From Haloarcula japonica DSM 6131 (GTDB taxonomy: Archaea > Halobacteriota > Halobacteria > Halobacteriales > Haloarculaceae): a stretch of 64,000 bases of DNA. Positions 11,788-59,559 of this stretch are shown piece after piece (positions within the stretch are counted from its first letter, which is position 1; each line of letters opens with the position of its first letter). The notes under the pieces were generated by a model. It was not told the DNA's origin. It saw only the letters and a list, made by a program, of their open reading frames with translations, and did no database searches. The position numbers were made by a program, and so were the translations under genes. The DNA lies in NCBI RefSeq assembly GCF_000336635.1, contig NZ_AOLY01000037.1, forward strand, positions 377,199 to 441,198. Reading direction: 5' to 3'.

Positions 11788-14232
11788 ATGGAGTTCCACG
11801 AGGCCGCGAACTTCCTCTTCGAGTTGCGCCGGTTCGCCCCGCGAGCCGGTACTGATGCCACGCAGGACCTGCTATCGTCGCTCGGTGACCCACATGAAGG
11901 ACTTCGCTGCGTCCAGATTGCGGGGTCCAACGGAAAGGGGTCAACCGCGCGGATGGTCGAACGAACGTTACGGGAAGCCGGCCTCGATGTCGGACTGTAC
12001 ACCTCGCCACATCTCGACGACGTGCGCGAGCGGATCCGTATCAACGGGCGGAAGCTCTCCGAAGCCGCGCTCGTCGAGTTCGTCGAATCGATCCGAACAT
12101 ACGTGACTGAACAGGGCGCGGCCAACGATTCGCCCACCTTCTTCGAGACGCTGACCGCGATGGCGCTGTGGGAGTTCGACCGCCAAGACGTCGACGTCGC
12201 AGTGCTGGAAGTCGGTATCGGCGGCCGATACGACGCCACGAGCGTGGTCGACCCGGCCGCCAGCGCTGTCACGTCCGTGACGCTCGAACACACCCATATC
12301 CTCGGCGACACCGTCGAGGAAATCGCCCACGACAAGGCCCACGTCGCCCCCGAGGACGCACCGCTGGTGACCGGGACGACTGGCGACGCACTCGCAGCCG
12401 TCCGCGAGGTCGCTTACGACATTGTGACTGTCGGCGAGGACGACGACGCCGACGTGACGGCCACGTACGGCGGTCGCGAGGGGCTCGAAGGGGCAGTCTC
12501 GGTCGACGGCCCCGACTGGAGCGTCGATACTTACCTCCCGCTGCTTGGCGCACACCAGGCACAGAACGCGGGAATCGCGGCCACGCTGTGTCGGCAGGTC
12601 ACGGACGTCTCGCAGACGGACCTCGAACGCGGGCTCCGAAACGCCCACTGGCCCGGCCGGTTCGAGGTGATGAACGAGTCGCCGCTGGTCGTCCTTGACG
12701 GGGCTCACAACCCCGGGAGCATCGAGCGTACCGCGGAGACGCTGTCCTCGTTCGACTACGACGACCTCCACGTCGTCATCGGCGCGATGGTGGACAAGGA
12801 CCACGAGCGTATCGCCGCGGCGCTGCCGGACCTGGACCACGTCGTCGCTTGCCAGCCGAACGTCGACCGGGCAGAGTCCCACCAGGTCGTCGCGACTGCA
12901 GTGGAGAACGCGACCGACGCGACGGTCGAGACACGCAGCGACGTTGCAGGGGCGCTCGATATCGCACTCGACGCGGCGGAGTCTAGCGATGCGGTCCTCG
13001 TGGTGGGGTCGCTGTACGCCGTACGAGAGGCCCGGACCAACTGGTCGCGCTCGCTGGTCTCCAAACAGGTCGACTCGCTGGCCGAGGCACGCGAGACCAT
13101 CGAGAGCGCCCACGTCACCGCGGCCGGGGCCCAGCGGATGCGAGGAAAGGGCGTCCACCGCGTCCTGCACACCCGCGTCCAGCCGCGACAGGCACAGTAT
13201 CTCAAGGAGGAACTGCTGTCGCTGGGCGGCGAATGTGCGATTTCCGGCCTGAGCGGTCAGGACGAGGAGTCCATCGATGTGGTCATGATGGCGACGATGG
13301 CCCAGTACAAGCGCCTTGCGGGGAAACTGGACGGCCAGCCCTACGGGCTCGCGTCGTTCGCCGACGAACTGCGGTCAGCGCTGTCTATCCAGCAGCCCGA
13401 GCCGGATACGTCGACAGTATATCCATGGGACGACGGGACGGCCGTGATGGGCATCTGCAACATCACCCCGGACTCCTTCCACGACGGCGGCGAGTACAAC
13501 GCCGCCGAGGACGCCGTCGCCCGCGCCGAGCGGATGGTCGAGGCCGGCGCGGATATACTCGACATCGGCGGAGAGTCGACACGGCCCGGAGCGGAGCCGG
13601 TCCCGGTCGAGGAAGAAATCGACCGCGTGGTCCCGGTTATCGATGCGCTCTCCGAGCTTGACGTCGCCATCTCCGTCGACACGCGGAAAGCCCCTGTCGC
13701 GCGAGCAGCGCTCGATGCCGGTGCAGACATCCTGAACGACGTGTCCGGGCTCGAAGACCCGGAGATGCGCCTCGTCGCCGCCGAGTACGACGTACCGGTG
13801 GTCGTGATGCACTCCATCGAGACGCCAGTCGACCCCGACAGCGACATCCACTACGACGACGTGGTCGAGGACTGCATCGATCAGTTGACGGAGCGCGTCT
13901 TGCTCGCCGAAAAGGCCGGGCTCGACCGTGACCAGATTATCGTCGACCCCGGCGTTGGCTTCGGGAAATCGCCCACGGACGATTTCGAACTGCTTGACCG
14001 CCTCCCGGAGTTCGAGGCACTCGGTTGCCCTATTCTGGTGGGGCACTCCCACAAGTCACTGTTCGGACTGGTCGGACAGGAGGCGGGCGACTGTCTGGAG
14101 GCGACCATCGCCGGGACGACGCTGGCGGCCGAACGGGGGGCCGACATCGTTCGCGTCCACGACGTCCCGGAGAACGTTGCCGCGGTTCGGGTCGCTGAGG
14201 CAGCTCAGAACCCGAGGAAATTCGAGGACTGA
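11788..14232 (+). CDS. folCP: Folylpolyglutamate synthase fused to dihydropteroate synthase
   Basis: 814 residues. Residues about 1-430 are FolC/dihydrofolate synthase (Mur-ligase fold) with the ATP loop GSNGKGST at 46-53, YTSPHLDDVRERI and VLDGAHNPGS. Residues about 445-540 carry QAQYLKEELLSLGG and TMAQYKRLAGKL, like the extra N-terminal domain of some dihydropteroate synthases. Residues about 550-814 are the FolP barrel with ICNITPDSF, DIGGESTRPGA, DPGVGFGKS, GHSHKSLFG and RVHD. Together it joins pterin to pABA and then adds glutamate. FolC-FolP fusions are known in halophilic archaea. Start is ATG 11788. Confidence 0.94.
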   Translation: MEFHEAANFLFELRRFAPRAGTDATQDLLSSLGDPHEGLRCVQIAGSNGKGSTARMVERTLREAGLDVGLYTSPHLDDVRERIRINGRKLSEAALVEFVESIRTYVTEQGAANDSPTFFETLTAMALWEFDRQDVDVAVLEVGIGGRYDATSVVDPAASAVTSVTLEHTHILGDTVEEIAHDKAHVAPEDAPLVTGTTGDALAAVREVAYDIVTVGEDDDADVTATYGGREGLEGAVSVDGPDWSVDTYLPLLGAHQAQNAGIAATLCRQVTDVSQTDLERGLRNAHWPGRFEVMNESPLVVLDGAHNPGSIERTAETLSSFDYDDLHVVIGAMVDKDHERIAAALPDLDHVVACQPNVDRAESHQVVATAVENATDATVETRSDVAGALDIALDAAESSDAVLVVGSLYAVREARTNWSRSLVSKQVDSLAEARETIESAHVTAAGAQRMRGKGVHRVLHTRVQPRQAQYLKEELLSLGGECAISGLSGQDEESIDVVMMATMAQYKRLAGKLDGQPYGLASFADELRSALSIQQPEPDTSTVYPWDDGTAVMGICNITPDSFHDGGEYNAAEDAVARAERMVEAGADILDIGGESTRPGAEPVPVEEEIDRVVPVIDALSELDVAISVDTRKAPVARAALDAGADILNDVSGLEDPEMRLVAAEYDVPVVVMHSIETPVDPDSDIHYDDVVEDCIDQLTERVLLAEKAGLDRDQIIVDPGVGFGKSPTDDFELLDRLPEFEALGCPILVGHSHKSLFGLVGQEAGDCLEATIAGTTLAAERGADIVRVHDVPENVAAVRVAEAAQNPRKFED

Positions 14233-14308
14233 GCGGCGCTGTTCGCTGGCGGCTGTCTGTGATTCTACCGGACCGAAAGCACTTACGCCACCACCGAGCA
14301 CCGCTGGT

Positions 14309-14947
14309 ATGGATCAGCGAGACATTGTCCGCCAGGGGTACGACGAAATTGCGAGTACCTACGCTGAGAAGCGGGACGGGAACGGTCGCGAACGGACCCT
14401 TGTCGAATTGCTTGCAGCGGCCCTCCCTGATGGTAGTCGTGTCCTCGATGCAGGCTGTGGTGCGGGTACACCGGCAATGGAAGTTCTCGCCGATCAGCAC
14501 GATACCATCGGACTGGATATCTCAGCTGAACAGCTCCGTACTGCTCGTGATACTGTCGACTCCGACGGACTGGTCCGTGGTGACCTGGCGGCGCTCCCGT
14601 TCGCCGACGATATGTTCGACGCTGTTGTCTCCTACCACGCCGTCATCCACGTTCCCAAGGACGAACACGCCACTGTCTTTTCAGAATTTGAGCGTGTGCT
14701 CCGGCCCGGCGGGCGACTCCTAGCCGCGCTGGGTGACGATCCATGGGAAGGTACGAACGACGACTGGCTGGATACCGGCACCGCCATGGCCTGGAGTTTC
14801 CACGGTCGTGAACGTAGCGCAGATCTACTGATGGAAGCCGGCTTTCGCGTCGAATCGGTCGAACCGGTCGACGATGAACTCGGAGGGACCTTCGCCATCT
14901 TCCAGGCACAACCGGCGGACAGCAAGACAGTGTCGGGTCACAACTGA
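14309..14947 (+). CDS. Class I SAM-dependent methyltransferase
   Basis: 212 residues. Seen: SAM-binding motif I VLDAGCGAGTPAMEVLA, the acidic end of strand 2 in IGLDIS, motif II-like RGDLAALPFADDMFDAVVS, and the UbiE/COQ5-type RVLRPGGRLL loop (Methyltransf_11). The substrate cannot be inferred. ATG 14309 gives a normal-length family member starting MDQRDIVRQGYDEIASTYAEKRDG; the longer open frame upstream overlaps folCP in another phase and is not used. It sits 76 bases after folCP and may be read from the same transcript. Confidence 0.88.
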   Translation: MDQRDIVRQGYDEIASTYAEKRDGNGRERTLVELLAAALPDGSRVLDAGCGAGTPAMEVLADQHDTIGLDISAEQLRTARDTVDSDGLVRGDLAALPFADDMFDAVVSYHAVIHVPKDEHATVFSEFERVLRPGGRLLAALGDDPWEGTNDDWLDTGTAMAWSFHGRERSADLLMEAGFRVESVEPVDDELGGTFAIFQAQPADSKTVSGHN

Positions 14948-50357: not shown

Positions 50358-50606
50358 ATGAATCACGACCGCATTCACGCACAGAAGCCGTCACACCACC
50401 GCGACCGCTGGACGGTCGGCACAATCACCGGGCTAACAGAGCGGGACGGCCATTGCGTCGTCACCGTCGAAAACGAGTCGGGTGAGCCAACCGAACTCGT
50501 CGTCACGCTGGCCATCCGCGACCTGTTCATCAGTCGGCTGGACATCGGCGACGACGAGAGCCCAGTCGGTGAGCGCGTTTGGTTCCGGAAACGCGGCAGG
50601 TCGTAG
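50358..50606 (+). CDS. Small uncharacterized protein, 82 residues
   Basis: A predicted small beta-barrel: WTVGTITGLTERDGHCVVTV, EPTELVVTLAIRDLF and GERVWFRKRGR look like alternating strands of an OB- or S1-like fold. The N-terminus is His/Arg-rich (NHDRIHAQKPSHHRDRW), unusual for this acidic proteome. No family recognized. Probably in one unit with the small membrane protein upstream. Start ATG 50358. Confidence 0.65.
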   Translation: MNHDRIHAQKPSHHRDRWTVGTITGLTERDGHCVVTVENESGEPTELVVTLAIRDLFISRLDIGDDESPVGERVWFRKRGRS

Positions 50607-50646: not shown

Positions 50647-51201
50647 CTACGAGAGGTCGACGGTCCGGTCGGCCCAGCGCCGAAGCCTACCGAGTGCGTC
50701 CCGTTCGGCTCGGGACACCGGATTATCGACGCCAAGTTCGTCGCTGTCGAAGGCGTTGAGGACGGCCACGTCCGCTCCGTCGCAGTATTCGGTGAGCCGG
50801 CTCACCGCGTCAGCCTCGTACTGAAACGGAATCGTCGCGTCGTTGACGAATACCGCTCGCGGATTCCGCGGGAGCGCGTCCATCTGTCGCTCGGCCCGGC
50901 GGGCGTTTTCCCGGGCGAGCGCGACCGCTTGGTTGTCCGTCTCGCTCTCGGTGCGCGGCGCACTGGCGTCGATTCGGCCGATCCAGACCGCTTCCGGCAC
51001 GGTAATGAATCGGTCGAGGCGGCCACCCAGAACAGTCCCGTCGCGTTCGAGTTCTGGCGCGAAATCGAGAACAACAACGCCAGCGGTCCCCTCGCTGTCG
51101 AGCCAGGCGTCGAGGGCGGCAGCGGTCGTCCGCGTCTTGCCGGCGTTCGAGGGACCGGTGACCAGCGTCGACCCCGAGAGCGGGAACTGGAGACCGGTCA
51201 C
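50647..51201 (-). CDS. P-loop NTPase overlapping the NRAMP-like gene
   Basis: 184 residues from a GTG that overlaps the transporter stop (GTGA at 51201-51198). Walker A reads GPSNAGKT (about 16-23), VVVLDFAPEL could hold a switch or Walker B-like strand, and ARAVFVNDATIP a second acidic strand. The N-terminal LQFPLSGSTLVTGPSNAGKT suggests a compact ATP-binding core. No helicase, ABC or GTPase signature. The overlap implies co-translation with the transporter, so a function linked to metal or solute transport is inferred. Confidence 0.72.
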   Translation of the reverse strand: MTGLQFPLSGSTLVTGPSNAGKTRTTAAALDAWLDSEGTAGVVVLDFAPELERDGTVLGGRLDRFITVPEAVWIGRIDASAPRTESETDNQAVALARENARRAERQMDALPRNPRAVFVNDATIPFQYEADAVSRLTEYCDGADVAVLNAFDSDELGVDNPVSRAERDALGRLRRWADRTVDLS

Positions 51202-52523
51202 GCGAGGAGTTCCTCCCGCAGGAACTTCCCGCCGAGGCCGGCCATGGCGAGGCCGAGCGCGACGGCAAAAGCCAGCACGAACCCGGAGAGCGGACCGACA
51301 CCGCCGCCGAGTTGCTCGACGACGAAGTTCGCGGCCAGCCCGCCCGAAACGGCGATGAGTACCAGCCCGCCGACGTTAGCTAGCGGTGAGTTCGATTCAG
51401 GGACTGCGTCAGAGTTCAGGAGATAGAGGACGAGGGCGATGACGAAGGGCGTGCCGACGGTACCGAGTGCGAGCACGAGGACGAGCTGGCCGAGCACGTT
51501 CCCGCCGATGAACGCGCCCGGCGCAGACAGCAGCGCGACGGCGACGAGCAGGCCGCGGTAGCGGCTATCCTCAATAGTGGTGCCCCAGCCGAGTTTGTCG
51601 GCCAGCAGGAACGCCGGGACGATGGTGTTACCGCCGAGCGACGACACGGCAGCGCCCCACAGGCCGAGCAGGAACAGCCAGCGGGCGCTGTCGCCGACCA
51701 GCGGACCAAGGGCTTCCGCAGCGCCGACCGTCGTCAGGTCGCCGGAGGTGAGGACGCTCGCCGTCACCAGGAAGATGGCGAGGCTGTAGACGCCGAAAGC
51801 CACCAGCATCGACGCTCCGACGTCGACTGTCGCGAGGTCGTAGTCTTCGCGGGTCCAGCCGCGTGCCCGCATCGTGTAGGAGTGCATCGTGATGAGCGTG
51901 ATGTGGACCGCCCCGCCGAGGATGCCGGCCGCGACCAGCGCGCTCCCGGACGGGACGGACGGGATCAGGCCGGTCACCGCCGCGCCGGCGTCGATGGGCA
52001 CGACGAACAGGCTGGCGACGAACGCGACGACGACCAGCAGGACGAGGACTTTCGCGGCCAGTTCGAGGAACCGGTAGCCCCCGCCCGCCAGGCCCGCTGC
52101 GAGGATGAGCGCCCAGACGACGCCCCAGATGTGGGCGTCAATACCGGTTACCGTCGCCGAAACCGTGGCGACAGTCTTCATAATGACCAACTGTGCCACG
52201 CCGGCAGCGAGTACCGCGTCGCCGACAAGCAACCACGCCCACGTTTCACCGAGGTTGTCCTCGACAACGGCGACGATACCCCGTTCGGTCAGCAGTCCCA
52301 ACCGCATCGCGAGATACTGCGCCAGCGCCCCCGCCCCCGCGGAGAGGACGACGACCCACAGGAGGCTGTAGCCGAACGCACCGCCAGCGGTAACGAGGCT
52401 GGCGATCGTCGCCGGGCCGGCGGCGATTGCGCCGGCAATCCAGGACGGCCCCATCGCCTCGACGTAGTCACCGATTGCATCCCTGCTCACAGTAGAACTA
52501 TCGACGGTTTCGGTCGAACTCAT
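51198..52523 (-). CDS. NRAMP-like transporter with non-canonical metal-site motifs
   Basis: 441 residues, 11 or so membrane helices with the LeuT-type inverted repeat. Helix 1 reads GPSWIAGAIAAGPATIASLV; classical NRAMP manganese/iron carriers have DPGN where this has GPAT. Helix 6 reads HITLITMHSYTMRARGW, where the classical motif contains Met-Pro-His. Loss of Asp and Asn at the metal site suggests another ion or a non-metal substrate, as seen in divergent NRAMP branches. ATG 52523 is preferred over 52565. The next gene (P-loop NTPase) overlaps its end. Confidence 0.82.
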   Translation of the reverse strand: MSSTETVDSSTVSRDAIGDYVEAMGPSWIAGAIAAGPATIASLVTAGGAFGYSLLWVVVLSAGAGALAQYLAMRLGLLTERGIVAVVEDNLGETWAWLLVGDAVLAAGVAQLVIMKTVATVSATVTGIDAHIWGVVWALILAAGLAGGGYRFLELAAKVLVLLVVVAFVASLFVVPIDAGAAVTGLIPSVPSGSALVAAGILGGAVHITLITMHSYTMRARGWTREDYDLATVDVGASMLVAFGVYSLAIFLVTASVLTSGDLTTVGAAEALGPLVGDSARWLFLLGLWGAAVSSLGGNTIVPAFLLADKLGWGTTIEDSRYRGLLVAVALLSAPGAFIGGNVLGQLVLVLALGTVGTPFVIALVLYLLNSDAVPESNSPLANVGGLVLIAVSGGLAANFVVEQLGGGVGPLSGFVLAFAVALGLAMAGLGGKFLREELLA

Positions 52524-52691
52524 ACCTCCGGCTTGGGTGATGCCCCCTGAAAATACTGCCGACATATCGTTCGGTGGTATTCTGCGGTAATTCGGCTGTA
52601 GTACTGCGATTGTTCGGAAACGGTAACGCTAGCTGAATTGGCACAGTATCCGCTCACGGAGCGGACCGCTACCGCAGACGACAGAGCCGCC

Positions 52692-53414
52692 TCAGAGTTC
52701 GACGATCCCGAGGTCCGATTCCAGTTCGTCGACGTGGTCGTTGTACGCGTCGACGAAATCCGCGAACTGTGGGGCGTACTCGCGGATGTCGGCGGCTGAC
52801 GGGGGTTCGTACTGCGAGAGGAGGTAGAGCCCGTTGCTGCCGCCGACGCGGAGATACGACGCGCCGTCGGTGTCCCACTTCAGTTCCCAGCGGGTGCCCT
52901 GGATTCGGCTGGTGAACGTGCCGTAGTCGCCGCCCTCGTAGCGCTGGAGTTCCCGCGCGATCTGGTCACAGATTTCGCGGATCCGACCGAGGACGCGGTC
53001 GCGTTCGGCCACGACACCGTCGGTGGTGGCGATTTCCGGGAACTCAGTCGACACGTCGTCGAGCACGCCGTCGAGGGACGCGACGTAGTTGTTGAACCCC
53101 TCGACGAAGGCGTCGTAGTCGGCGAGCGCGGCGGCCAGCGGCTCCGGCTCCGGTGGCTGTTTCGTCGAGATGACGTACGTGTCCGAGCCACGCGACGGCG
53201 AGAACCGGAGGTACTCCAGGTCGCCGCCCTCGTACTTCACCGTCCACTCGCCGCGGTCGGTCTCGATATCCGCCTGCCCGTAGTCGCCGCCCTCCAGCCG
53301 GGCGAGCTGGTAGGCGACCTGTCCGGCGTGGTCCCGGACCGCCGCGACCAGTTCGTCACGCTGCTGTGCAACGGCCGTTGCGTCGGCAGGGTCCACCGGT
53401 GGCCACTCTGTCAC
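52692..53414 (-). CDS. Uncharacterized protein made of two tandem copies of one domain
   Basis: 240 residues from GTG 53414. Two halves align: residues about 18-118 and 135-232. Shared landmarks are ARLEGGDYGQADIET against LQRYEGGDYGTFTSRI, GEWTVKYEGG against TRWELKWDTD, YLRFSPSRGSDTYVISTKQP against YLRVGGSNGLYLLSQYEP, and YDAFVEGFNNYVASLDG against FADFVDAYNDHVDELES. Each copy is helix, beta-sheet, helix. No membrane segment, no catalytic motif. No family recognized; the internal duplication suggests a pseudo-dimer that may bind a ligand or partner. Confidence 0.78.
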   Translation of the reverse strand: MTEWPPVDPADATAVAQQRDELVAAVRDHAGQVAYQLARLEGGDYGQADIETDRGEWTVKYEGGDLEYLRFSPSRGSDTYVISTKQPPEPEPLAAALADYDAFVEGFNNYVASLDGVLDDVSTEFPEIATTDGVVAERDRVLGRIREICDQIARELQRYEGGDYGTFTSRIQGTRWELKWDTDGASYLRVGGSNGLYLLSQYEPPSAADIREYAPQFADFVDAYNDHVDELESDLGIVEL

Positions 53415-55278: not shown

Positions 55279-55424
55279 GTATCGGTTCTCGGGACAGCCG
55301 GTCGTAAAACCATGCCGTTCACGAGACGGAGCGTGCCAGCAGACCATTACAGAGCGAACGGCGGCCGAGAGTTGAATATTCAGGAACAGCGGGGTTAAGT
55401 ACCACTGGGTGTGACCACGGAGTA

Positions 55425-56549
55425 ATGGATAGACGTTCGTTCCTGACAGCGGCCGGTGCGACGGTGTCCGTCTCGTTCGCGGGCTGTGCCGGACTGGGCG
55501 GCAGCGACGAGTCGAGCACCGAGGGGTCGAGCACGGACGAGTCGACTGCGAGCGGGACGAGCACCGGCGACGCCGGCGGTGCCGAGGAGACGCTCGTCGT
55601 CGGGACCTACAGCGCATTCATCGATTCGCCGTCGACGAGTCCCGGTGCGTGGGTGAAACAGCGCTTCGAGGAGGAGTTCGACGCCCGGCTCGTCTGGCAG
55701 ACGCCGAGCAACGAGCTCAACCACTACGTCGAGCGCCGAAACGCCGGCGTCGACATCGAGGCCGACATGTACCTCGGGCTGAACACCGATCACCTGGTCA
55801 CGGTTGACGAGAATCTCGACGACTCCCTGTTCGCCGAGGTCGGCGACGTGGCCGGTCAGGACGACATCAAGCCGGGTCTGCAGTTCGACCCCGACGGCCG
55901 GGCCATCCCCTACGACACCGGCTACATCAGCCTGGTGTTCGACGGGACGGCGACCACCGCGCCTGAGACCTTCGACGGGCTCCTCGCCGAGGAACACGCC
56001 GGCGACCTCATCACGCAGAACCCCGCCAGCTCCGCGACCGGGCGGGCGTTCCTGCTGCATACGATCAAGCAGTTCGGTCCCGACGGCTACCTGGACTACT
56101 GGAGCGACCTGCAAGACAACGATGTTCGGGTGCTGGGCTCCTGGAGCGACGCCTACAGCGCGTGGTCGAGCGGCGAAGCGCCGATGGTCGTTTCCTACTC
56201 CACCGATCAGGTGTTCGCCGACCAGAACGATGCCAACATGGAGGAACACCAGATTCGGTTCCTGAACGACCAGGGCTACGCCAACCCGGAGGGGATGGCC
56301 GTCTTCGAGGGCGCAGACACGCCCGACCTCGCCCGGGAGTTCATGGGATTCCTGCTGCGCCCGGAGGTTCAGGGCGAAATCGCCGTCCGGAACGTCCAGT
56401 TCCCGGCGACCGAGTCCGCCGAGCTGCCCGAGGACTACGCGGAACTGGCCCAAGAGCCCCCGGAACCGGTCACGTTCGGCTACGACGAGCTCAGGGGCTC
56501 CGTTTCGGGCTGGATATCCGACTGGGAGCGGCAGTTCGCCTCGAACTGA
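55425..56549 (+). CDS. thiB: Thiamine-type ABC transporter substrate-binding lipoprotein
   Basis: 374 residues. A short signal MDRRSFLTAAGATVSVSFAGC with lipobox Cys is followed by a Ser/Thr/Gly-rich tether (about 24-54) and a type II binding protein. Its landmarks follow ThiB: LVVGTYSAFIDSPSTSPG, DMYLGLNTDHL, AIPYDTGYISLVFD, GSWSDAYSAWSSGEAPMVVS and a C-terminal SGWISDWERQF. It would capture thiamine or a phosphate ester outside the cell and deliver it to the permease. First gene of a three-gene unit, 12 bases before the permease start. ACGGAGTA precedes the ATG closely. Confidence 0.88.
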   Translation: MDRRSFLTAAGATVSVSFAGCAGLGGSDESSTEGSSTDESTASGTSTGDAGGAEETLVVGTYSAFIDSPSTSPGAWVKQRFEEEFDARLVWQTPSNELNHYVERRNAGVDIEADMYLGLNTDHLVTVDENLDDSLFAEVGDVAGQDDIKPGLQFDPDGRAIPYDTGYISLVFDGTATTAPETFDGLLAEEHAGDLITQNPASSATGRAFLLHTIKQFGPDGYLDYWSDLQDNDVRVLGSWSDAYSAWSSGEAPMVVSYSTDQVFADQNDANMEEHQIRFLNDQGYANPEGMAVFEGADTPDLAREFMGFLLRPEVQGEIAVRNVQFPATESAELPEDYAELAQEPPEPVTFGYDELRGSVSGWISDWERQFASN

Positions 56550-56561
56550 CGACGACCGACT

Positions 56562-58418
56562 GTGGCCCGAGATTCCGACGGCGGTGCTGCTAAAGATCGC
56601 GGCGAAGTGTCGACAGCGACGGCGAGCAGCGCGAACCAAGAGCAACGGCGACGCATTCGCAACAGCGTCGAACGGCGGGCCATCGTCGGGCTCGCGGTCG
56701 CCACTATCGCGCTGTTGCTCGGCATCTTCTACTACCCGGTTGCGACGGTGTTCATCGACAGCGTTCTCGTGGAGGGTCGCTGGACCGGTCGAGTGTTCGT
56801 CTCGATCCTGCAGGACCCGTTCTACCTCGGCGAGCCGGCGCGGTTGCTCGCCGGCGAACCAGCAGGGGCAGTCATTGAGGCCTTCCTTTCGCCGGACCGG
56901 CGGCTAGGCGTCATCGGCTTCACGGCGTACCAGGCGGCGCTCTCGACAGTCGCCAGCGTCGCTCTGGGCCTGCCGGCGGCGTATCTGCTCGCTCGCTACG
57001 AGTTCCCCGGCCGGCGGACGCTCCGGTCGCTGACGATTCTCCCCTTCGTCCTGCCGTCGATAATGGTCGGTGTGGGCTTCGTCGCCACGTTCGGCCGGAA
57101 CGGGACGCTCAACGCCGTGCTCGGCGCGCTCGGTCTCGGACAGGTCGATCTCCTGTTCACGCTGGAAGCCGTCGTCATCGCCCACGCGTTCTACAACGCC
57201 CCGCTCGTCGCTCGGGTGACCACCGCCGCCTGGGAGTCCGTCGACGCCAGCGCGGTCGAGACGGCCCGGAGCCTCGGTGCGAGCCCGCTCCGGGCGTTCC
57301 GCGACGTCGTCGCTCCGCAACTCTACCCGTCGGTGCTGATGGGCGCGGCGCTGACCTTCGTGTTCACCTTCAGCACGTTCCCCATCGTCCTGGCGCTGGG
57401 CGGGTTCCAGCTTGCGACCGTCGAGGTGTTCGTCTACCGGCTCATCCGCGACCTGGAGTACGCCGAGGCGGCCGCGCTCGCGCTCATCGAGCTCGGCATC
57501 TCGCTGGGGCTGCTGTACGCGTATCTCCGGTACGAGGCCAAGCACACTGTCCAGTCACGGGGGATTCGCCCGCTCCCGCGGCGGCCGCTGAGGCCGCCGT
57601 CGCTCTCGGTCCGTGAACTGCTACCCAGAATGGGACTGACCGTCTACGCCGTCGTCGCGCTGGCGGTGTTCGTCGCACCGATTGCGAGCATGGTTCTCGC
57701 CAGCCTCAGCGGGCCGGAGGGGCTGACGCTGGCGAACTACCAGTTCCTCATCGACCGCCAGACGACCGGCGCGTCGTTCCAGGTCCAGCCCTGGGACGCG
57801 GTCCGGAACTCGCTGCTGTTCGGCGTCGCATCGCTGGCCGTCGCGCTCCCGATGGGCGTCGTCGTCGCTGTCCTCACGACTCGGGACTACCGCGGCCGGA
57901 AGGTCGTCGACGCGGTTGCGATGGCTCCACTGGCCGTGTCCGGCATCGTCGTCGGCCTCGGACTGCTTCGGGGCCTCGTCTTTGGCGTCGAGGTCGGCGG
58001 CTCGCGCATCGCCGTCGGCGGCGGTCTCGCCATCGTCGCCGCCCACGCCGTCGCCGGCTACCCCTTCGTCGTCCGCACCGTCGCGCCCGGCCTCGAAAGT
58101 ATCGACCACACGCTGGTCGAGTCCGCCCGCGCGCTCGGCGCGCCGCGGGCCAGAGCGCTGCTGGACATCGAGCTCCCGCTGGTCTGGCCGGCCGTCGTCG
58201 CCGGGGCCGCCTTCGCCTTCGCTATCTCCATCGGGGAGTTCTCGGCGACCGTCGTCCTCGCGTCGGGAACGAACCAGTTCACGATGCCCATTGCCATCGA
58301 GCGGTTCATCGGCCGCCGGCTCGGCCCCGCGACGGCGATGGGTGTCGTCCTGCTCGTGGTCACCAGCGCGAGCTTCCTGCTCATCGACCGGCTGGGAGGT
58401 GACGACGTTGGGTTCTAA
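56562..58418 (+). CDS. thiP: ABC transporter permease with two fused halves (ThiP-like)
   Basis: 618 residues from GTG 56562. Two homologous permease halves lie in one chain, each with about six helices and an EAA-type coupling loop: VETARSLGASPLRAFRDVVA in the first and VESARALGAPRARALLDIEL in the second. A hydrophilic N-terminus of about 40 residues precedes helix 1. Fused permeases of this kind are typical of ThiP and FbpB; the neighbouring ThiB-like binding protein favours thiamine. Its last codons overlap the ATPase start by 11 bases. Confidence 0.9.
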   Translation: MARDSDGGAAKDRGEVSTATASSANQEQRRRIRNSVERRAIVGLAVATIALLLGIFYYPVATVFIDSVLVEGRWTGRVFVSILQDPFYLGEPARLLAGEPAGAVIEAFLSPDRRLGVIGFTAYQAALSTVASVALGLPAAYLLARYEFPGRRTLRSLTILPFVLPSIMVGVGFVATFGRNGTLNAVLGALGLGQVDLLFTLEAVVIAHAFYNAPLVARVTTAAWESVDASAVETARSLGASPLRAFRDVVAPQLYPSVLMGAALTFVFTFSTFPIVLALGGFQLATVEVFVYRLIRDLEYAEAAALALIELGISLGLLYAYLRYEAKHTVQSRGIRPLPRRPLRPPSLSVRELLPRMGLTVYAVVALAVFVAPIASMVLASLSGPEGLTLANYQFLIDRQTTGASFQVQPWDAVRNSLLFGVASLAVALPMGVVVAVLTTRDYRGRKVVDAVAMAPLAVSGIVVGLGLLRGLVFGVEVGGSRIAVGGGLAIVAAHAVAGYPFVVRTVAPGLESIDHTLVESARALGAPRARALLDIELPLVWPAVVAGAAFAFAISIGEFSATVVLASGTNQFTMPIAIERFIGRRLGPATAMGVVLLVVTSASFLLIDRLGGDDVGF

Positions 58419-59559
58419 GGAACCGCCGTCAGACAGTCCAGCCGTGGACCGGACCAGCACGCCGGCGGTCGAACTCGATGGTGTCACCAGACGCTACGGC
58501 GAGACGACCGCTGTCGGGGACCTCTCGCTGTCGATTCAGGACGGCGAGTTCTTCACGCTGGTCGGCCCCTCGGGCTGCGGGAAGACAACGACGCTCCGGC
58601 TCATCGCGGGCTTCGAAGACCCCACGCAGGGGGGAATCCGGTTCGGCGGCGAGTCCGTCACCGGCGTCCCGCCGGAGGACCGCGACGTGGGCGTCGTCTT
58701 CCAGAACTACGCCCTGTTCCCGCACATGTCCGTTGGGGAGAACGTCGGCTACGGACTCTCGTTCACTGACCCACCGGGCGGCGGCAGCGACGAGGCGCGG
58801 GTGCGGGAACTGCTGGAGCTTGTGGACCTCGGCGAGATGGCCGACCGGGACCCCGACACGCTCTCGGGCGGCCAGCAGCAGCGGGTGGCGATGGCCCGTG
58901 CGCTGGCCCCCGGCCCTGACGTGCTCCTCCTCGACGAGCCGATGAGCGCGCTGGATGCGAAGCTCAGGGAGCGCCTCCGCGTGCAGGTCCGCGAGATTCA
59001 GCAGGAACTGGGCATTACGACGATTTACGTCACCCACGATCAGGAGGAGGCGCTGGCCGTGTCCGACCACGTGGCGGTCATGCACGACGGAACGCCAGAA
59101 CAGGTCGCGCCACCGCGGACAATCTATCGCGAGCCGGCGACTGAGTTCGTCGCCACCTTCGTCGGCGACAACAACGTTCTCAGTGGCGAGGTGACGGCGG
59201 TACGGTCGACCGATGACGCTGACGACAACGGCGATGGGAGTGAACAATCCATCGCGGACGTGACGGTCGACGATGCGACGTTCTCAGTTGCCCTGAACGG
59301 CGACAGCGACCCGACCGCGGCTGTCTCGTCCGGAGACCGGCTCACGTTCTGCGTTCGGCCGGAACGGCTCGCTGTCGACGCCGACCGAAACGCACTGACG
59401 GCGACGGTCACGAGCGCAGAGTTCCTCGGAGAGACGACGCGCGTTCACCTCGACTGGGAGGGGCGTGAACTCCTGCTACGAACCGAAGACCCACCGACCG
59501 GGACCGTGACAGTCGGCTTTGCCCCGACGGACGCACACATTGTCGACAGACAGCCGTAA
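58408..59559 (+). CDS. thiQ: ABC transporter ATP-binding protein (ThiQ/PotA-like)
   Basis: 383 residues. Walker A GPSGCGKTTT, Q-loop VVFQNYALFPHMSVGE, signature LSGGQQQRVAMARAL, Walker B DVLLLDEPMSALDA and switch His in VTHDQEEAL, then a TOBE-like C-terminal domain (about 245-383). The start is TTG 58408, inside the permease gene. A full Shine-Dalgarno GGAGGTGA at 58395-58402 sits five bases before it, and no ATG or GTG nearby fits. It powers the import through the preceding permease. The C-terminal domain is longer than in E. coli ThiQ, more like PotA/FbpC, so an iron or polyamine system is the alternative. Confidence 0.9.
   Translation: MGSKEPPSDSPAVDRTSTPAVELDGVTRRYGETTAVGDLSLSIQDGEFFTLVGPSGCGKTTTLRLIAGFEDPTQGGIRFGGESVTGVPPEDRDVGVVFQNYALFPHMSVGENVGYGLSFTDPPGGGSDEARVRELLELVDLGEMADRDPDTLSGGQQQRVAMARALAPGPDVLLLDEPMSALDAKLRERLRVQVREIQQELGITTIYVTHDQEEALAVSDHVAVMHDGTPEQVAPPRTIYREPATEFVATFVGDNNVLSGEVTAVRSTDDADDNGDGSEQSIADVTVDDATFSVALNGDSDPTAAVSSGDRLTFCVRPERLAVDADRNALTATVTSAEFLGETTRVHLDWEGRELLLRTEDPPTGTVTVGFAPTDAHIVDRQP

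Follow-up and report, generated by a model that had tools for sequence, protein, structure and literature searches.

A putative thiamine-salvage operon in haloarchaea pairing an NRAMP-fold carrier with a P-loop protein distributed complementarily to ThiM

Results

Organization of the locus

The window, a contiguous stretch of 64,000 nucleotides, derives from a Haloarcula-type genome (G000, contig C37), the nearest named loci being from Haloarcula. It contains the following features.

50647..51201, minus strand: 184-aa protein of P-loop NTPase fold, predicted to be a non-orthologous hydroxyethylthiazole kinase (Walker A, fold, linkage to the carrier, exclusion of ThiM)
51198..52523, minus strand: NRAMP-related carrier of 441 aa, predicted importer of a thiamine precursor (thiazole) (PF01566, GPAT/HIT motifs, fold, own clade)
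52563..52582, minus strand: operator-like motif with the sequence GAATACCACCGAACGATATG, some 40 nt upstream of the carrier start codon (ATG at 52523; score with a position weight matrix, PWM, 20.1)
55398..55417, plus strand: second, weaker motif copy immediately upstream of thiB (PWM score 10.0; p about 0.009)
55425..56549, plus strand: thiB, substrate-binding protein of a thiamine ABC transporter (TIGR01254, 139 bits; cut-off 93.4)
56562..58418, plus strand: thiP-like double permease (PF00528 twice; NCBIfam ThiP models below cut-off)
58420..59559, start approximate, plus strand: thiQ-like ABC ATPase (PF00005 and PF08402)

The coordinates and the GTGA junction given for the gene pair in the sequence-only reading hold, both genes lying on the minus strand and the TGA stop of the carrier gene (51200-51198) and the GTG start of the P-loop gene (51201-51199) overlapping by 4 nt. 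An alternative ATG is present upstream at 52565, but the start at 52523 appears preferable because the promoter motif occupies 52563-52582. An Rfam scan returned no TPP riboswitch or other RNA family near the operon. Upstream of the carrier, a gene at 52692-53414 (minus strand) codes for a protein of 240 aa which is conserved in Haloarcula and has no confident Pfam match, and a DUF7861 gene (82 aa; 50358-50606, plus strand) converges with the P-loop gene. The thiB, thiP-like and thiQ-like genes begin 3 kb from the carrier; the NCBIfam ThiP models cover most of the length of the permease. Genes for 94-96% identical ThiB proteins are located near the carrier in five other Haloarcula loci, and a partial match is found in L119.

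An NRAMP fold devoid of metal and proton ligands

Public records label the carrier as a 'divalent metal cation transporter', and it scores 247 bits with the Pfam Nramp model (PF01566; gathering score 29.8), while remaining below the cut-offs of all three NCBIfam NRAMP/MntH models. In an alignment of DraNramp, which provides the numbering, with 70 carrier orthologues, the TM1 site D56-P57-G58-N59 is replaced by G-P-A-T/S, the TM6 site M230-P231-H232 by H-[I/V/M]-[T/S], and the proton-pathway residues E124/D131/E134 of TM3 by V or I/Q/I, in each case in 70/70 sequences; the carrier of the window itself has GPAT and H-I-T. Since the same residues are replaced throughout the orthologues, including those of TM3, a misaligned NRAMP motif is ruled out as the cause. 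The original observation of GPAT in place of DPGN and of a missing M-P-H is thus confirmed, and the proposal derived from it, that this is not a classical Mn/Fe carrier, gains support from the loss of metal and proton residues within a retained NRAMP fold. The AlphaFold2 model (pLDDT 85) matches DraNramp with a Z score of 47.3 (370 residues, 25% identity), EleNRMT with 45.0, and YcsG (9a52) with 43.4.

A tree of 59 carriers together with canonical, NRMT-like and GPGT proteins places the carriers in one fully supported clade of their own, not nested among the NRAMPs sampled, so that the placement inside classical NRAMPs named as a counter-argument in the sequence-only reading was not observed; the sample is without EleNRMT, YcsG and PxpT and the outgroup branches are long, which makes the deeper placement unsure. 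Four more distant, NRMT-like archaeal relatives from outside the order carry DAGG/APW motifs. The same genome also codes for an NRAMP-like paralogue (C46:11613-12755; L131:3560-4768) with GPGT/VGY motifs, which is 29% identical to the carrier and probably belongs to an uncharacterised G-motif group. Two further NRAMP-like paralogues (G190:C2:1107202-1108395 and G108:C2:66277-67488) are located within open frames of >1000 aa and are possibly parts of fusions.

It may be argued that transport of a divalent metal has been retained, e.g., of Fe or Mg for use by Thi4, ThiC or kinases, and that the carrier shares its regulation with thiamine genes as the pathway needs the metal. The NRAMP fold itself, the transport of Mg by NRMT-like proteins lacking the canonical motifs (PMC4072509; PMC12873925), and the report of the related protein YcsG/MntG as a Mn importer (PMC10448178) are in line with this, but none of D56, N59, M230, H232 and E134 is retained in any of the 70 orthologues, and the mutual exclusion of the P-loop gene and ThiM described below would be left unexplained. 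We therefore regard a metal substrate as very improbable, and a moiety of thiamine would be expected instead of Mg, Al or a generic cation.

The P-loop partner

The description of the 184-residue partner as a P-loop protein proved correct, with the Walker A residues G16, G21, K22 and T23 invariant in 37/37 homologues and a P-loop fold in the predicted structure (pLDDT 92.5). Structure searches with this model retrieved Rho/RecA, type II thymidine kinase (TK1), CobU and CobA at Z scores of about 12; the small-molecule kinases TK1 and CobU are among the best matches, in line with a kinase, and KaiC-like folds rank with Rho/RecA as high as the kinases. As judged from the model, these fold matches do not single out any function, a kinase being inseparable from RecA/Rho-like ATPases. 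A function as Rho or RecA was discarded, as the similarity is one of fold alone and no added domains are present. Sequence searches of Pfam, NCBIfam and PDB reached no family and gave weak generic AAA matches only, the ThiM family model (PF02110) did not match, and no HET-binding residues were assignable (HET, 4-methyl-5-(2-hydroxyethyl)thiazole).

Linkage of carrier and P-loop genes

Among 243 haloarchaeal genomes, all of one order, 110 contain a carrier orthologue and 60 the P-loop gene. Directly downstream of the carrier and on the same strand lie 62 of the 63 P-loop matches, the remaining one being a fragment; the intervening gaps range from -4 to +74 nt, with one of 481 nt, and none of the 243 genomes has the P-loop gene without the carrier. 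The pairing is not due to chance. The adjacency anticipated from the single locus is thus general for the P-loop gene, but the overlap is not: it is restricted to Haloarcula and one neighbouring genus, and elsewhere 5-74 nt separate the ends of the two matches. Loss of the P-loop gene from beside the orthologues, which had been named as an argument against a functional pair, was not observed as a rule, although about half of the orthologues are without it. In a sample of the phylum, both genes are confined to the order, except for one borderline P-loop match (G260, E 8e-4), and a species-wide contig scan for the P-loop protein gave matches in haloarchaea only.

Thiamine-related genes next to the carrier

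Clustering of the neighbouring proteins, followed by Pfam and NCBIfam scans, showed that the genes adjoining the carrier in several families include those for TenA, ThiR-like HTH-ThiN regulators, ThiDN and an SSF symporter. When PF03070 and PF10120 were mapped genome-wide in 80 carrier genomes, 25 of them proved to have a TenA or ThiN-domain gene no more than 3 kb away from the carrier, compared with about 0.6 expected by uniform placement; the significance of this difference is inflated by the relatedness of the genomes, the cases nonetheless spanning several families. In families f7 and f14, most genomes have no TenA or ThiN gene adjoining the carrier. A 5-oxoprolinase context like that of YcsG/PxpT, suspected from the lengths of the neighbours, was dismissed when these turned out to be TenA and SSF. 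In nine loci (L009, L075, L077, L085, L088, L107, L108, L116 and L118), the carrier has as a direct neighbour a gene for a PhyH-type Fe/2-oxoglutarate dioxygenase (PF05721, from a scan of L118), which could form part of the salvage route. The genome of the window also harbors two ThiR-like HTH-ThiN genes no more than about 8 kb apart (L134:6220-7116 and 13434-14363).

A shared promoter motif

The carrier promoters have a near-palindrome in common, roughly TAcCAC-N3-GTgRTA. Of the 60 carrier upstream regions, which alone served to train the PWM, 50 score above 12 bits, versus 16-21 in shuffled sets. The best match in the window is the carrier site at 52563-52582, and the strict pattern occurs only there in the entire genome. 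Outside the training set, the PWM matches upstream of the TenA domain in 18/20 unlinked tenA loci, about 70-100 bp before the domain (per-locus p <0.02; usually the best and otherwise a near-top window of the locus). Matches in the same genome are also present at the Thi4 promoter and at the divergent promoter of tenA and a thiR-like gene, and a degenerate-pattern search yielded 14 sites including Thi4, tenA/thiR and the carrier. A lower score was obtained for the copy preceding thiB (10 bits, p 0.009 versus windows of the same length), and the PWM partly overlaps a TATA-like element. Matches in C40, C46 and C8:29594 were set aside as intragenic-looking or assignable to no gene. A motif-like site at L134:4759-4778 precedes a DUF7001/DUF6775 gene (a probable metallopeptidase) near thi4, a possible additional regulon member.

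An operator-like palindrome common to carrier, tenA and thi4 promoters and the presence of ThiR-like genes are traits of a ThiR-type regulon, and ThiR is the presumed ligand of the palindrome. An earlier study reportedly reconstructed ThiR regulons in haloarchaea, and the carrier may already figure there as a predicted thiamine-related transporter. From its genomic context, the carrier/P-loop pair very probably belongs to thiamine salvage.

Complementary distribution of the P-loop gene and ThiM in carrier genomes

A thiM gene has been reported for every Natrinema, whereas within Haloarcula just two species have one (PMC12029414), and the distributions of the P-loop gene and ThiM were therefore compared. 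The 80 carrier genomes comprise 43 with the P-loop gene only, 33 with ThiM only, two with both (that of the window and G065), and two with neither (the nearly complete G003 and one that is 61% complete; Fisher p 1e-17), where contig breaks may hide some of the genes counted as absent. The two genes are thus almost mutually exclusive. The genomes are related rather than independent. On the carrier tree, used in place of a species tree, the P-loop state changes 12 times, and in seven independent supported pairs ThiM changes opposite to the P-loop gene in 5.7 on average and never in the same direction (p 0.03). One of the two genes is present in 78/80 carrier genomes versus 29/80 carrier-less ones (p 4e-18), whereas ThiM alone, found in 29/80 of the carrier-less genomes, does not differ between the two groups (p 0.42). 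The absence of TenA is not associated with the P-loop status (p 0.72).

These patterns also bear on the possibility that the P-loop protein is not a pathway enzyme, but an ATP-dependent regulator or energiser of a carrier serving thiamine salvage. The strict operon pairing, with the P-loop gene present only together with the carrier, and the level ranking of Rho/RecA/KaiC-like folds and kinases would agree with such a role. Roughly every second carrier lacks this partner, however, and its lack is matched by ThiM in 33/35 genomes, which is unexpected for a regulator and makes this explanation unlikely. The complementary distribution favors, somewhat above even odds, the P-loop protein being a kinase that replaces ThiM. 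A physical association between secondary carrier and ATPase, as implied by the sequence-only reading, is not supported; a link by pathway, namely transport followed by phosphorylation, agrees better with the evidence.

Discussion

The nature of the transported compound is narrowed down by the carrier being a member of the same clade regardless of whether it accompanies the P-loop protein or ThiM; therefore, one shared substrate is favored. As this substrate would need phosphorylation by either ThiM or the P-loop protein, HET is the leading candidate, with about even chances of being the correct one. Uptake of thiamine or HMP, with the P-loop protein as thiamine or HMP kinase and a different salvage route in the ThiM-containing genomes, fits all of the thiamine-pathway context equally well, thiamine is handled next door by thiBPQ, and a study of thiamine metabolism in Haloarcula names no thiamine kinase (PMC12029414). 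The complementary pattern involves ThiM, a HET kinase, and one carrier clade accompanies either protein, so that we consider this alternative rather unlikely, although it comes first among the possible ones, ahead of a regulatory ATPase and a residual role in metal transport.

In the HET-based reading, the carrier and P-loop genes form a thiamine-salvage operon. Upon thiamine shortage, a ThiR-type repressor composed of HTH and ThiN domains would leave the palindromic operator, allowing transcription. The NRAMP-fold carrier, having lost its metal and proton ligands, would then import a small thiamine moiety, most likely HET, which the P-loop protein would phosphorylate to HET-P in ThiM's stead; HET-P would be trapped and subsequently joined to HMP-PP by ThiE/ThiN. 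Transport, kinase activity and ThiR binding are all proposed here from comparative genomics, and we assign a probability of roughly 0.5 to the entire account of a HET importer and a non-orthologous HET kinase that traps its substrate. The broader claim, that a clade of NRAMP-fold carriers has switched from metals to the vitamin B1 precursor thiazole/HET along with an unrecognised P-loop HET kinase replacing ThiM across the haloarchaea, is more tentative still.

A comparison with known systems shows that the carrier shares its fold and PF01566 with the canonical NRAMP/MntH proteins (SLC11) such as DraNramp, but lacks DPGN, MPH and the TM3 proton-pathway acids and stays below the NCBIfam cut-offs. 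With the G-motif proteins (YcsG/MntG, PxpT), it has the fold and the G replacing the TM1 aspartate in common, but it contains GPAT/HIT rather than the GPGT/VGY of its paralogue, the two branching in separate clades of a tree without YcsG and PxpT, and its context is thiamine rather than 5-oxoproline. The NRMT-like Mg transporters (EleNRMT) resemble it in fold and in the loss of the canonical metal motifs, whereas their archaeal relatives carry DAGG/APW and form a separate clade (in a tree without EleNRMT). The P-loop partner is similar to type II thymidine kinase, CobU and CobA in size and RecA-like P-loop fold, but only about 10-19% identical in structural alignments. ThiM (PF02110) is a ribokinase-type enzyme, whereas the partner has a P-loop fold; the two would catalyze the same reaction and are complementary in genomic distribution, yet unrelated in sequence.

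The literature search retrieved no paper that links NRAMP with the transport of hydroxyethylthiazole. NRAMP-related proteins lacking the metal motifs have been described as a paraphyletic and mostly uncharacterised set (PMC12873925), and PxpT, an NRAMP-family protein, is required for growth of C. glutamicum on 5-oxoproline (PMC13274462), providing a precedent of an organic substrate for the reading of the carrier as an importer of a thiamine moiety. Both the carrier and the kinase proposals lend themselves to testing in haloarchaea amenable to genetics. If this reading is correct, the vitamin-precursor substrate would revise the annotation as 'divalent metal cation transporter' across numerous haloarchaeal genomes and show the NRAMP fold shifting between metals and organic molecules, and the ThiM gap of Haloarcula (PMC12029414) would be closed by a P-loop HET kinase.
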